From Desmonostoc muscorum LEGE 12446 (GTDB lineage Bacteria > Cyanobacteriota > Cyanobacteriia > Cyanobacteriales > Nostocaceae): 64,000 nucleotides of DNA. Below are positions 35,598 to 38,763 of the stretch, in pieces. The first letter of the stretch is position 1; each line of letters begins with the position of its first letter. Below the pieces are notes generated by a model. It worked only from the letters and a program-made list of their open reading frames with translations. It was not told the DNA's origin and ran no database searches. The stretch lies in the NCBI RefSeq assembly GCF_015207005.2, contig NZ_JADEXS020000001.1, forward strand, positions 4,970,001 to 5,034,000. The letters are read 5' to 3'. A program made the position numbers and the translations under genes.

Positions 35598-35843
35598 GAT
35601 CCCCCTAAATCCCCCGATAAATTGGGGGACTTTAATTCTAGTTCCCCCCTTCTTTAAGGGGGGTTAGGGGGGATCAAAACGTTAACTAAACCCTATTACC
35701 TTAAAAACGGTGACTTTAATTCTAGTTCCCCCCTTCTTTAAGGGGGGTTAGGGGGGATCAAAACGTTAACTAAACCCTATTACCTTAAAAACGATGCCTT
35801 TAACTCCAGTTCCCCCCTTCTTTAAGGGGGGTTAGGGGGGATC
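35598..35843. repeat. GATCCCCC palindromic repeat cluster, 84-bp tandem array
   Basis: A full element (35598-35675) opens with GATCCCCCTAAATCCCCC and closes with GGGGGGTTAGGGGGGATC. Two more copies of its right half follow at 84-bp steps (35726-35759 and 35810-35843), carried on a tandem unit with GTTAACTAAACCCTATTACC. After each outer copy comes TCCAATGACTATGCACC, also present after the elements at 36270 and 36411. All elements begin and end in GATC. Confidence 0.85.
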
Positions 35844-35904
35844 TCCAATGACTATGCACCAAAACCTACGCAGTATTGGGTAGGGGGTATAAACACTCTT
35901 AACT

Positions 35905-36291
35905 ATGACAAACAAACTCAATAGCAGCAATCTCCATCTACCTTACAATCCAAAGCTTGTAGAAAGAGCGAAAGAACTTCGTAAAAATATGACCCCAGCC
36001 GAAAAAAAGCTGTGGTATGAATATTTGAGAAATTTTCAATATCGGGTTTTAAGACAACGACCGATTAATCATTTCATAGTTGATTTCTACTGTCCTACTT
36101 TACAAACAGTGATTGAAATTGATGGGCATAGCCATTTTACAAATGAAGGTCAAGATTATGATCTGGAGAGAACAAACATTTTAGAAGGCTATGGTTTAAA
36201 GATTATTAGGTTTACAAATAGTCAAGTTTTAAATCACTTTGATAGTGTGTGTGAGCAGATACAGCATCTGATCCCCCCTAACCCCCCTTAA
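35905..36291 (+). CDS. DUF559 endonuclease-like protein
   Basis: 128 residues. The DUF559 family shares the Vsr-like PD-(D/E)XK fold. Visible are the ARG/KELRKNMTPAEKKLWYEYLR start, RPINHFIVDFYCPTLQTVIEID (Asp and Glu of the nuclease core), GHSH and RTNILEGYGLKIIRFTN. It should be a metal-dependent DNA nuclease, perhaps nicking (family knowledge). It is flanked by palindromic GATC-bounded repeats on both sides and takes its last residues (IPPNPP) and stop from the next repeat (36270-36346). Confidence 0.82.
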   Translation: MTNKLNSSNLHLPYNPKLVERAKELRKNMTPAEKKLWYEYLRNFQYRVLRQRPINHFIVDFYCPTLQTVIEIDGHSHFTNEGQDYDLERTNILEGYGLKIIRFTNSQVLNHFDSVCEQIQHLIPPNPP

Positions 36292-36488
36292 AAAAGGGGG
36301 GAACCGGAATTAAAGTCCCCCTTCTTAAGGGGGATTTAGGGGGATCTCCAATGACTATGCACCTTAGAGGTTGTTTAAAAAGTGGTTGGCTGTGATTTTA
36401 GACACTTCTAGATCCCCCCTAACCCCCCTTAAAAAAGGGGGGAACCGGAATTAAAGTCCCCCTTCTTTAAGGGGGATTTAGGGGGATC
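36270..36488. repeat. Two full GATCCCCC palindromic elements (36270-36346, 36411-36488)
   Basis: Each is 77-78 bases: GATCCCCCCTAACCCCCC, AAAAAAGGGGGGAACCGGAATT, then AAGTCCCCCTTCTTTAAGG and GGGATTTAGGGGGATC. Both are followed by TCCAATGACTATGCACC. The 36369-36410 spacer (GTTTAAAAAGTGGTTGGCTG) recurs at 38650 upstream of another element. The first element contains the 3' end of the DUF559 gene. Confidence 0.85.
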
Positions 36489-36566
36489 TCCAATGACTAT
36501 GCACCTTAACCGAATCGTATTGAGGTCTCCTGATTTGCAAAACGAGATGTATTTATTTTGTAAATG

Positions 36567-36818
36567 AACCTCAAAGCATCGTCAATGAACCTCAGAGCTT
36601 CGTCAATAAACCTCAAAGCTTCGTAAATGAACCTCAGAGCTTCGCCGATGAACCTCAGAGCTTCGCCAATAAACCTCAAAGCTTCGTCAATAAACCTCAG
36701 AGCTTCGCCGATGAACCTCAGAGCTTCGCCGATGAACCTCAAAGCTTCGCCGATGAACCTCAGAGCTTCGCCGATGAACCTCAAAGCTTCATCAATGAAC
36801 CTCAGAGCTTCGTTAATG
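36567..36818. repeat. Minisatellite, 12 x 21 bp
   Basis: Twelve units of AACCTCAGAGCTTCGCCGATG with substitutions at a few sites (A/G, C/T, ATG/ATA ends). The 21-base period keeps all frames open, so apparent proteins on both strands (RFIGEAL and NLRASPM repeats) are probably artefacts. No spacer sequence, so not CRISPR. It sits 110 bases upstream of the HEAT-repeat gene. Confidence 0.85.
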
Positions 36819-36853
36819 AGTCTTTAATACTCGTGGGCGAGTATTAAAGACTC
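36818..36853. terminator. Perfect 16-bp stem-loop directly after the minisatellite
   Basis: GAGTCTTTAATACTCG and its exact complement with a 4-base TGGG loop. No T-tract follows, so it might be a protein-binding palindrome or structure rather than a simple terminator. It begins at the last base of the last 21-bp unit, so the two may be linked. Confidence 0.6.
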
Positions 36854-36928: not shown

Positions 36929-38629
36929 ATGCTCATAACTCCCCGCCACACTAACAAGCTCTCGCTCTTTTTCCTTTTCTGTTTCACCCTACTCCTGACT
37001 TTCCTCCTCTCTCTAACTTGGGTAAACGCCAAAGAAACCCCCAAACTCAAACCCCAAGATTGGCAGATTAACGGTATATCAGCAGCCCTTGATGATGGAT
37101 ACGACCAAGTTAAGGAATATGCTCTGCTCAATTTAGTTGGATATGATCTCAAAGATTTAAAATCCTTGGGCAATAAACCAGAGGAAATTGCTCAAAAAGC
37201 TGCCAATATCCTCAAGGATAAATCCGTTGACTCAACTGTTCGTAACCGTGCAGCAGACGCATTGGGAAATCTGGGGGAGGCAGCCAAACCTTACGTCAAA
37301 GACATCCTCGACATCCTCAAGGATAAAACCGTTGATTCTGATGTTCATTTCGGTGCAGCATCGGCATTGGTAAGTCTGGGGGAGGCAGCTAAACCCTACG
37401 TCAAAGATATCCTCGACTTCCTCAAGGATAAAACCGTTGACCCTTTTGTTCGTAACCATGCAGCATGGGTATTGGGAAATCTGGGGGAGGCAGCCAAACC
37501 CTACGTCAAAGACATCCTCGACTTCCTCAAGGATAAAACCGTTGACTCAACTGTTCGTTCCGGTGCAGCATCGGGATTGGGAAATCTGGGGGAGGTAGCC
37601 AAACCCTACGCCAAAGACATCGCTGACATCCTCAAGGATAAAACCGTTGACTCAACTGTTCGTTACGGTGCAGCAGAGGCATTGGGAAGTCTGGGGGAGG
37701 CTGCTAAACCCTACGTCAAAGACATCCTCGACATCCTCAAGGATAAAACCGTTATCCTTTTTGTTCGTAACCGTGCAGCATGGGTATTACGAAATCTGGG
37801 GGAGGCTGCCAAACCCTACGTCAAAGACATCCTCGACATCCTCAAGGATAAAACCGTTGACTCCGATGTTCGTTCCGGTGCAGCATGGGCATTGGGAAAT
37901 CTGGGGGAGGCTGCCAAACCCTACGCCAAAGACATCCTCGACTTCCTCAAGGATAAATCCGTTGACTCCCTTGTTCGTTACAGTGCAGCAGACGCATTGG
38001 AAAATCTGGGGGAGGCTGCCAAACCCTACGTCAAAGACATCCTCGACATCCTCAAGGATCAAACCGTTGGTTCTGATGTTCGTTTCCGTGCAGCAGACGC
38101 ATTGGAAAATCTGGGGGAGGCTGCCAAACCCTACGTCAAAGACATCCTCGACATCCTCAAGGATAAATCCGTTGACTCAAATGTTCGTTACAATGCAGCA
38201 CGGGCATTGATAAACATAGAACAACTCAACCTGAATAATATTCTTGTAATTCTGGATAGCATTTATTACGCAGACCAATCAGAATTTCCACGTTGGCGAT
38301 TTTTAACCTATTTCCTGGGTGGCGGCACTGATGAAGTAAAAACCTTACTGACATGGCTGGGTTTTCCTAACACTAAAACAATTCCTGCTCAAATAAGCCA
38401 CGATCGCGGTGAGAAAACTCTCAAAATATTTGCCCAAGCATGGGAACCCAGCCAAGGTTTAGGACGATTACAGGAAGACTTAGCAAAGCAAATTGCTGTA
38501 GTTGCGAAAAAAGTCTCTTGGCAACCAAACGATATTATTCTGTTAGAAACTCATTACAACAACCTCAAAAAAGCTGGTTCCAACGAAGCTGATTCACTGC
38601 AATCAGTCATAGTTAAGCTCAAGGGTTGA
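36929..38629 (+). CDS. HEAT-like repeat protein with near-identical 35-residue units
   Basis: 566 residues. An N-terminal hydrophobic signal (LSLFFLFCFTLLLTFLLSL) is followed by about ten units of 35 residues, DILDILKDKTVDSDVRSGAA... ALGNLGEAAKPYVK. The units keep DILKDK and LGEAAKPY almost unchanged at the DNA level but vary at positions 12-13, 16-18, 21 and 24. The C-terminal 150 residues are different (FLTYFLGGGTDEVKTLLTWL). The protein is probably exported and its concave HEAT surface is a binding platform (inference). Downstream lies a decayed membrane-protein tail. Starts at ATG 36929. Confidence 0.85.
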   Translation: MLITPRHTNKLSLFFLFCFTLLLTFLLSLTWVNAKETPKLKPQDWQINGISAALDDGYDQVKEYALLNLVGYDLKDLKSLGNKPEEIAQKAANILKDKSVDSTVRNRAADALGNLGEAAKPYVKDILDILKDKTVDSDVHFGAASALVSLGEAAKPYVKDILDFLKDKTVDPFVRNHAAWVLGNLGEAAKPYVKDILDFLKDKTVDSTVRSGAASGLGNLGEVAKPYAKDIADILKDKTVDSTVRYGAAEALGSLGEAAKPYVKDILDILKDKTVILFVRNRAAWVLRNLGEAAKPYVKDILDILKDKTVDSDVRSGAAWALGNLGEAAKPYAKDILDFLKDKSVDSLVRYSAADALENLGEAAKPYVKDILDILKDQTVGSDVRFRAADALENLGEAAKPYVKDILDILKDKSVDSNVRYNAARALINIEQLNLNNILVILDSIYYADQSEFPRWRFLTYFLGGGTDEVKTLLTWLGFPNTKTIPAQISHDRGEKTLKIFAQAWEPSQGLGRLQEDLAKQIAVVAKKVSWQPNDIILLETHYNNLKKAGSNEADSLQSVIVKLKG

Positions 38630-38687
38630 CAGTAGTTTTTTAAGAGGATGTTTTAAAAGTGGTTGGCTGTAATTTTAGGCACTTGTT

Positions 38688-38763
38688 GATCCCCCCAACC
38701 CCCCTTAAAAAGGGGGGCAAATTCTCTAAAAGTCCCCCTTTTTAAGGGGGATTTAGGGGGATC
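38688..38763. repeat. GATCCCCC palindromic element
   Basis: 76 bases with GATC at both ends, same architecture as 36270 and 36411 but diverged inside. Preceded by the shared GTTGGCTGTAATTTTAGGCAC segment. It lies 59 bases after the HEAT gene stop. Confidence 0.8.

Follow-up and report, generated by a model that had tools for sequence, protein, structure and literature searches.

DUF559 nuclease genes of Cyanobacteriales and their clade-specific palindromic repeats: a candidate two-component selfish system

Genes encoding DUF559 (PF04480) proteins in Cyanobacteriales are closely associated with short C-tract/G-tract palindromes, the flavour of which differs according to the clade of the encoded protein. 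The number of these palindromes in a genome tracks the presence of the cognate DUF559 clade, with many exceptions. With moderate confidence, the DUF559 nucleases and the palindromes adjoining them are interpreted here as a two-component selfish system. The locus under study lies within a 64-kb stretch of the genome of Desmonostoc muscorum LEGE 12446 (C1:4970001-5034000, hereafter the window), which has relatives in Nostoc and other cyanobacteria and for which an initial annotation had likened a DUF559 gene and its neighbouring repeats to RAYT transposases and REP sequences.

The DUF559 locus of the window

The DUF559 gene occupies positions 35905 to 36291 on the forward strand and encodes a protein of 128 amino acids, assigned using Pfam, an AlphaFold2 model and Foldseek. 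Direct reading identified four full palindromic elements, all listed on the forward strand and all with GATC at both ends: a 78-bp element at 35598-35675 (left half 35602-35629, right half 35644-35670), a 77-bp element at 36270-36346, a 78-bp element at 36411-36488 and, 3' of a HEAT-like gene, a 76-bp element at 38688-38763. The last codons of the DUF559 gene (IPPNPP) and its TAA stop (36289-36291) lie inside the 36270 element. The initial annotation, which had described a gene among GATC-ended palindromes with its stop codon inside one of them, two full elements downstream and another copy at 38688, was borne out on each of these points. Its account of the 5' region as a tandem array of half-elements held in so far as palindromic halves are present in tandem; the array in fact comprises one full element and two further right halves, forming an 84-bp tandem repeat of 2.6 copies (35628-35843, forward strand, by repeat detection) in which the right half-element GGGGGGTTAGGGGGGATC closes each unit. 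The shared sequence that it had seen after several GATC ends was read as TCCAATGACTATGCACC, a tag present on the forward strand at 35844-35860, 36347-36363 and 36489-36505, in each case after GGGGGATC.

The 64 kb of the window contain ten detected half-elements, of which eight fall at 35602-36484 and the other two at 38692-38759. The elements possess terminal inverted repeats, GATCCCCC...GGGGGATC, the ends of which are also part of the pattern used in the element search. Single-strand DNA folding yielded z scores of -3.8 (35598-35676), -2.8 (36270 element), -3.2 (36411 element) and -5.3 (38688 element). A 45-bp flank at 36366-36410 (forward strand) is repeated to the left of the 38688 element at 38643-38687 (family D5, 84% over 75 nt). 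This left flank adjoins two of the window's GATC elements, and some copies may therefore belong to a longer composite unit. A 21-bp tandem repeat of about 12 copies occupies the intergenic region at 36563-36819, and related arrays are found at the same place in relatives. The ORF at 36929-38629 contains 9.5 copies of a 105-bp repeat at 37208-38209 and by eye resembles a HEAT-like repeat protein.

The only other PF04480 match in the genome, at C1:2493869-2494189 (loci L001 and L174), is interrupted by an in-frame TAA. This second copy also ends in a palindrome, of a different flavour: a ACCCCACCCTAACCCTCCCC-hairpin, itself dispersed in the genome with 68 matches at no more than 3 mismatches, whereas its reversed pattern has no match. 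The exact sequence GGGGGATYTAGGGGGATC occurs ten times in the 9.6-Mb genome, four of these in the window locus, and its reversed pattern is absent; the core GGGGGATTTAGGGGGATC likewise has ten exact genomic copies, four of them at the window locus. At up to 3 mismatches, half-element matches numbered 51 genome-wide compared with 12 for the reversed control. Only 9 of the 51 lie in the window locus, which places the majority far from either DUF559 gene. No half-elements were detected in 40 loci after mononucleotide shuffling, against 252 in the real sequences. The palindromes at the window locus are not the product of chance.

A repeat with ends like GCTACGGTGTACACAC appeared by eye to be inserted in the hairpins of GATC elements at five loci (L325, L326, L244, L246 and L252), and at L325 this repeat, again by eye, itself encloses another GATC element. 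The window's genome contains 33 matches to it at no more than 1 mismatch.

Family and predicted fold of the DUF559 protein

The window protein matched PF04480 with 98.4 bits, well above the curated cut-off of 20.6, and is a member of the DUF559 family. No other Pfam entry exceeded its cut-off, MTES_1575 falling below its own. The AlphaFold2 model (pLDDT 86) has a nuclease fold: Foldseek matched it to NGO0050 (3hrl, E 2e-5) and to the catalytic domain of the homing endonuclease I-Bth0305I (3r3p_B, E 9.2e-4, prob 1.00), with a weak match to Vsr (1cw0, E 0.039). A sequence search against structures found only 3hrl. Residues invariant across 20 homologues include E33, D60, E71, D73 and H77, a pattern that would fit the expectation for an active metal-dependent nuclease. 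By both Pfam family and fold the enzyme is distinct from the Y1 HuH tyrosine transposases.

In the available text of PMC9403480 a DUF559 gene has already been called an EDxHD homing endonuclease, and in that of PMC12907096 a DUF559 protein of Caulobacter, VsrA, is placed as Vsr-like, with a proposed role as a nuclease of mismatch repair that is linked to a cytosine methylase. No link between DUF559 and palindromic repeats was found in literature searches covering excerpts of open-licence papers.

Association of DUF559 genes with palindromes in Cyanobacteriales

Among 148 genomes of the order, PF04480 was present in 99. From the matches listed, 140 stretches with flanks of at most 6 kb contained 145 DUF559 ORFs from 87 genomes, 128 of them short (240 aa or fewer) and 17 longer. 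Half-elements were detected as a succession of C-block, C-arm, loop and G-arm. Before removal of redundancy, 116 of the 128 short genes had a half-element within 200 bp; removal of genes more than 80% identical left a non-redundant set of 89 short genes. A palindrome lay within 200 bp of 79 of these 89, compared with 15/244 for other short ORFs and 51/556 for other ORFs at the same loci, which contradicts the possibility, considered in the initial annotation, that DUF559 genes usually lie far from such repeats. Extending the distance to 600 bp gave 80/89. Half-element density was 13.9 per kb at 0-50 bp from the gene against 0.09-0.25 per kb beyond 1 kb. Loci of HNH genes in the same genomes contained any half-element within approximately 3 kb in 1 of 30 cases (3 of the 30 loci being incomplete); this whole-locus count supersedes an earlier one of 1/17, for which 17 of the 30 loci had been delineated. 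A reversed-pattern control was dropped from one test, as the reversed pattern matches the elements themselves.

Elements were present on both sides within 300 bp in 50/89 genes, and for 9/89 no element was detected within 300 bp. A test independent of flavour, requiring that the 250-bp flanks on both sides share a perfect 7-nt hairpin arm, was positive for 34/89 DUF559 genes and for 1/244 other short ORFs. The terminus of the element faced the gene in 49/70 upstream and 47/60 downstream cases, the loop end in 21/70 and 13/60 respectively. This preponderance of facing termini favours an arrangement in which the gene lies between palindromes over one in which it lies inside a single palindrome. 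In 30/89 genes the stop codon either fell inside a half-element or lay no more than 8 nt from one; tight packing may have produced such overlap as a by-product. No gene was a constant neighbour, the commonest family within 2.5 kb occurring at 7/89 loci.

Correspondence of palindrome flavour and copy number with DUF559 clade

Half-elements upstream and downstream of one gene resembled each other more closely (mean similarity 0.80) than they did half-elements from another genome chosen at random (0.45), elements being present on both sides in 83/145 genes. In genomes with at least two DUF559 genes (40 genes), the gene's own flavour gave the better match in 28 cases and that of the other gene in 10, with 2 ties (p=0.005). 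The flavour correlation used 134 genes, the 11 of the 145 without any element having been dropped. Between different GTDB families, DUF559 identity correlated with element similarity (Mantel r=0.384, equalled in 0 of 999 permutations), species relatedness being controlled only in part. Mean element similarity was 0.38-0.42 below 50% DUF559 identity, 0.51 at 50-60% and 0.72-0.78 above 60%, and for 119/134 genes the more similar palindrome accompanied the nearest DUF559 of another family.

When a gene was counted for every tag borne by any of its elements, 42/43 of the window's clade carried ATCCCC. In the GC clade 18/22 carried GCCCC and 4/22 also or instead ATCCCC. The tallies for other clades were 12/13 (ACCCC), 10/13 (ACCCC/CACCCC), 12/12 (CCTCTCC), 10/11 (CCTCACC) and 6/6 (CACCCC); since tags overlap and a gene may have several, these smaller clades are less cleanly separated.

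Across the 148 genomes the GATC-type repeat GATCCCCCTAAATCCCCC was commoner where the window clade was present (40 genomes, median 6.5 vs 0, p=2.5e-5) and was not associated with presence of the GC clade (p=0.63). The GC-type repeat GCCCCCTAAATCCCCC was more abundant in the 22 genomes with the GC clade (median 4 vs 0, p=2e-8) and was also weakly associated with the window clade (p=0.005); in all of these p values species are not independent data points. The initial annotation had asked whether repeats occur equally in genomes without DUF559. Statistically they do not, being commoner with the cognate gene, but by eye 36 genomes held at least 10 GATC copies and 18 of these 36 had no window-clade gene among the matches listed, some of the assemblies being drafts. 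Nine genomes similarly had at least 5 GC copies and no GC-clade gene among the matches listed. Repeat-rich genomes of this kind could reflect loss of the gene, a gene beyond the matches listed, or independent spread of the repeat.

Occupied and empty sites, in-frame insertions and element borders

The window's site bears the gene with varying numbers of elements in N. punctiforme NIES-2108 (L243), in the relatives L325-L327 and in the more distant L331. At L328 the site contains, without the gene, one 43-bp palindrome whose ends correspond to those on the outside of the window array. The same site is bare in L330 and L332, having neither gene nor palindrome. An attempt to polarise L328, as loss or as a pre-insertion state, using a tree of the upstream gene was dropped because the deep forks were left open.

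L244 and L245 share a unit (96.7% identity over 452 bp) but differ in its immediate flanks. Interpretation of this as one unit at two unrelated places was rejected, since 1.1 kb of upstream DNA is common to both loci at different distances from the gene, and rearrangement explains this as well as movement does. An analysis of shared blocks in 197 locus pairs sharing the gene and little else (up to 12 kb) was given no weight: at least one of the pairs (L100/L102) proved to be an 8-kb syntenic block, and there was no control gene.

Palindromes are also inserted in frame within protein-coding genes. In seventeen long stop-to-stop ORFs DUF559 is accompanied by one or more detected half-elements, and by eye the nearest half-element is within 60 residues of the DUF559 domain in 16 of them, L143 being the exception. 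Six of the 17 were scanned and proved to be MmeI-type (L128, L087), type ISP (L120), Eco57I-like (L143), DUF1156 (L148) and an N6/N4 methylase (L145). In L145, DUF559 occupies an intein-like insert of the N6/N4 DNA methylase, with a match to intein_Cterm of 21.9 bits (cut-off 15.6) and one to Intein_splicing of 23.6 bits, which is under its cut-off of 35.8. DUF559 apparently likewise lies inside an intein-like insert in L144, and both L144 and L145 have half-elements in frame.

At one MmeI site (HGNALQIDW...FGNPPFVG) 20 loci were read. Four homologues were empty (10-11 residues), one had a GATC palindrome alone in frame, four had DUF559 with palindromes, two had another repeat and nine did not have the anchors in one frame. 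The unrelated in-frame repeat at this insertion site (SQRRKGAKE in L365, SQRHKDAKE in L367) indicates that the MmeI site accepts several repeat families.

Among 53 distinct full GATC elements, a target-site duplication of at least 3 nt was seen in 1/53, with 1.1 expected (shuffled mean), and there was no excess. Direct repeats of 2 nt at the borders numbered 12/53 (shuffled mean 6.3, maximum 13). Outside the GATC ends there was a tendency to TTTA and TAAA.

DUF559 loci in other phyla

A scan of named genomes from many phyla provided 80 loci (L243-L322), the best 80 of 567 confirmed, to which 7 plasmid loci were added from 33 plasmid records with a match. The first detector found an element within 200 bp at 66 of these 87 loci. 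In the named genomes the same hairpin arm was present on both sides of 38/80 DUF559 genes (best 80 of 567) and of 0/136 other short ORFs. Clostridia first seemed negative (1/12) because the first detector was too narrow; their designation as a negative group was rejected, the flavour-free hairpin test being positive at 10/12 loci. The corresponding counts were 2/12 by the same-arm test versus 10/12 by the first detector for Bacteroidota, and 1/7 and 9/12 (with plasmids) respectively for proteobacterial loci; the same-arm test requires identical arms and hence undercounts. At L278 (Ktedonobacteria) neither element nor hairpin was found near the gene. Four clostridial loci (L276, L277, L282 and L286) have DUF559 genes between CTCTCCC hairpins and encode proteins ending in PLSHLR, which at L276 is read from a CCTCTCAGTCACCTACGG stretch adjoining the hairpin.

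Proposed mechanism and alternative explanations

In the two-component system proposed here, each nuclease clade would recognise one palindrome flavour, set by the clade-specific outer bases (ATCCCC for the window's clade and GCCCC, ACCCC, CCTCTCC or CCTCACC for others), and would cut or nick DNA at the palindrome ends. New sites might then acquire a copy, through repair or recombination, either of the palindrome alone or of the gene together with the palindromes on its flanks, so that the nuclease would be the cause of their spread. Gene-less palindromes would represent non-autonomous copies and gene-bearing copies would sit between palindromes. Insertion could occur in frame within genes, the methylases of restriction-modification systems in particular.

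The main rival to this mechanism is homing into pre-existing palindromes. The palindromes would then be the target of the nuclease and not its cargo; their spread would have a different cause, and free-standing homing endonucleases, one for each DUF559 clade, would insert next to or into their own flavour. The fold likeness to I-Bth0305I, the homing-endonuclease position of DUF559 in the intein-like insert of L145 and the single gene-less palindrome of L328, its ends matching the outer ends of the window array, are all consistent with homing. However, the gene is more often found between palindromes with their termini facing it (49/70 upstream, 47/60 downstream) than in a split palindrome, and repeat abundance rises with the cognate clade, which would not be expected of a pure target; homing is regarded as a serious but rather unlikely explanation. 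Less likely again is that gene and palindromes are both passengers of an unlinked transposase or recombinase, in the manner of MITEs, with DUF559 as cargo or stabiliser. Such a transposase would need to track DUF559 clades in order to produce the matching of flavours across GTDB families, there is no constant neighbour gene (at most 7/89 loci, considering linked genes only) and no excess of target-site duplications of 3 nt or more, even though the inverted termini and the TTTA/TAAA tendency outside GATC resemble transposon ends and most copies are gene-less.

The palindromes might instead serve the gene, as a terminator or an expression-damping hairpin, with DUF559 acting as a repair enzyme like VsrA of Caulobacter. 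Strong folding (z -2.8 to -5.3), the frequent overlap with the stop codon (30/89) and the Vsr-like placement of a DUF559 protein in the available text of PMC12907096 are in keeping with such a role. A terminator or damping hairpin would account poorly for palindromes on both sides of 50/89 genes, for dispersed copies far from the gene that share the flavour of the gene's own, and for palindromes in frame inside large ORFs, and this explanation appears highly improbable. That repeat-rich intergenic regions simply gather small genes by chance can be virtually discounted: genes and repeats are both mostly intergenic and mobile-looking, yet the matched short ORFs (15/244), the HNH loci (1/30) and the specificity of flavour all contradict such an artefact.

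Comparison with known systems

The two-component reading recalls REP/RAYT, a palindrome and an enzyme thought, in the excerpts of PMC3733652, to spread together. As described there, and as in the present case, the palindromes are short and dispersed, the enzyme gene is flanked by its own clade-specific type and a genome may have several pairs. RAYTs are, by the same excerpts, tyrosine (HUH) transposases acting on GTAG-tagged REPs, whereas DUF559 has an unrelated nuclease fold and its palindromes are tagged GATC (window), GC, AC and others by clade, GTAG not having been encountered among them. The DUF559 system is therefore not a REPtron, lacking both HuH and GTAG, though it would be REPtron-like in its working. 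The parallel drawn in the initial annotation is strongly supported as far as genomic pairing is concerned, since the genes lie close to the repeats, flavour is specific to the clade and copy number covaries with it; movement of the palindromes by the nuclease is something we still infer. No observation pointed to the other role suggested in that annotation, protection of the nuclease by the palindromes or the reverse. REPs of the CGTC type are said in the excerpts of PMC3733652 to be without a dedicated transposase. DUF559 was considered as their missing partner and rejected: when CGTCAT[TC], one narrow pattern, was sought at the 87 DUF559 loci, a hairpin was seen by eye only at L266, and the window elements differ in ending in GATC.

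DUF559 resembles the EDxHD homing endonucleases such as I-Bth0305I in its fold match and its intein-like location at L145, but differs from those described in the excerpts of PMC3943268 and PMC9403480 in being linked to clade-specific families of palindromic repeats and usually free-standing. Like the Rickettsia palindromic elements (RPE), DUF559 palindromes occur in frame in protein genes, at cyanobacterial loci other than the window; they are unlike RPE in being tied to a nuclease clade, the available text of PMC10969869 mentioning no nuclease partner of RPE. VsrA of Caulobacter belongs to the same Pfam family, and DUF559 has a weak fold match to Vsr, but the available text of PMC12907096 mentions no repeat association for VsrA. 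Terminal inverted repeats are shared with classic MITE and IS elements, from which the GATC family differs in lacking any excess of target-site duplications of at least 3 nt.

A broader proposition, for which the chances appear evenly balanced, is that DUF559 serves as the dedicated enzyme for a class of palindromic repeats that spans phyla, and is a non-homologous counterpart of RAYT. The nuclease family and its flavours, from the cyanobacterial GATCCCCC to the clostridial GCTCTCCC, would then all belong to one ancient system of two-part selfish replicators, with many of the C-rich palindromes in bacterial genomes as its non-autonomous progeny.

Bacterial genomes commonly contain short palindromic repeats, most of which, apart from those of the REP/RAYT pair, have no known source. 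If DUF559 drives the repeats described here, a Pfam family still titled as being of unknown function would gain a role, and many interspersed palindromes would gain a candidate enzyme, open to study with a protein of 128 residues and an oligonucleotide of 80 bases. It would also follow that replicators composed of a repeat plus an enzyme had evolved repeatedly, on the basis of unrelated enzymes. The matched pairs constitute ready sets of nuclease and target site with which the evolution of recognition may be studied.
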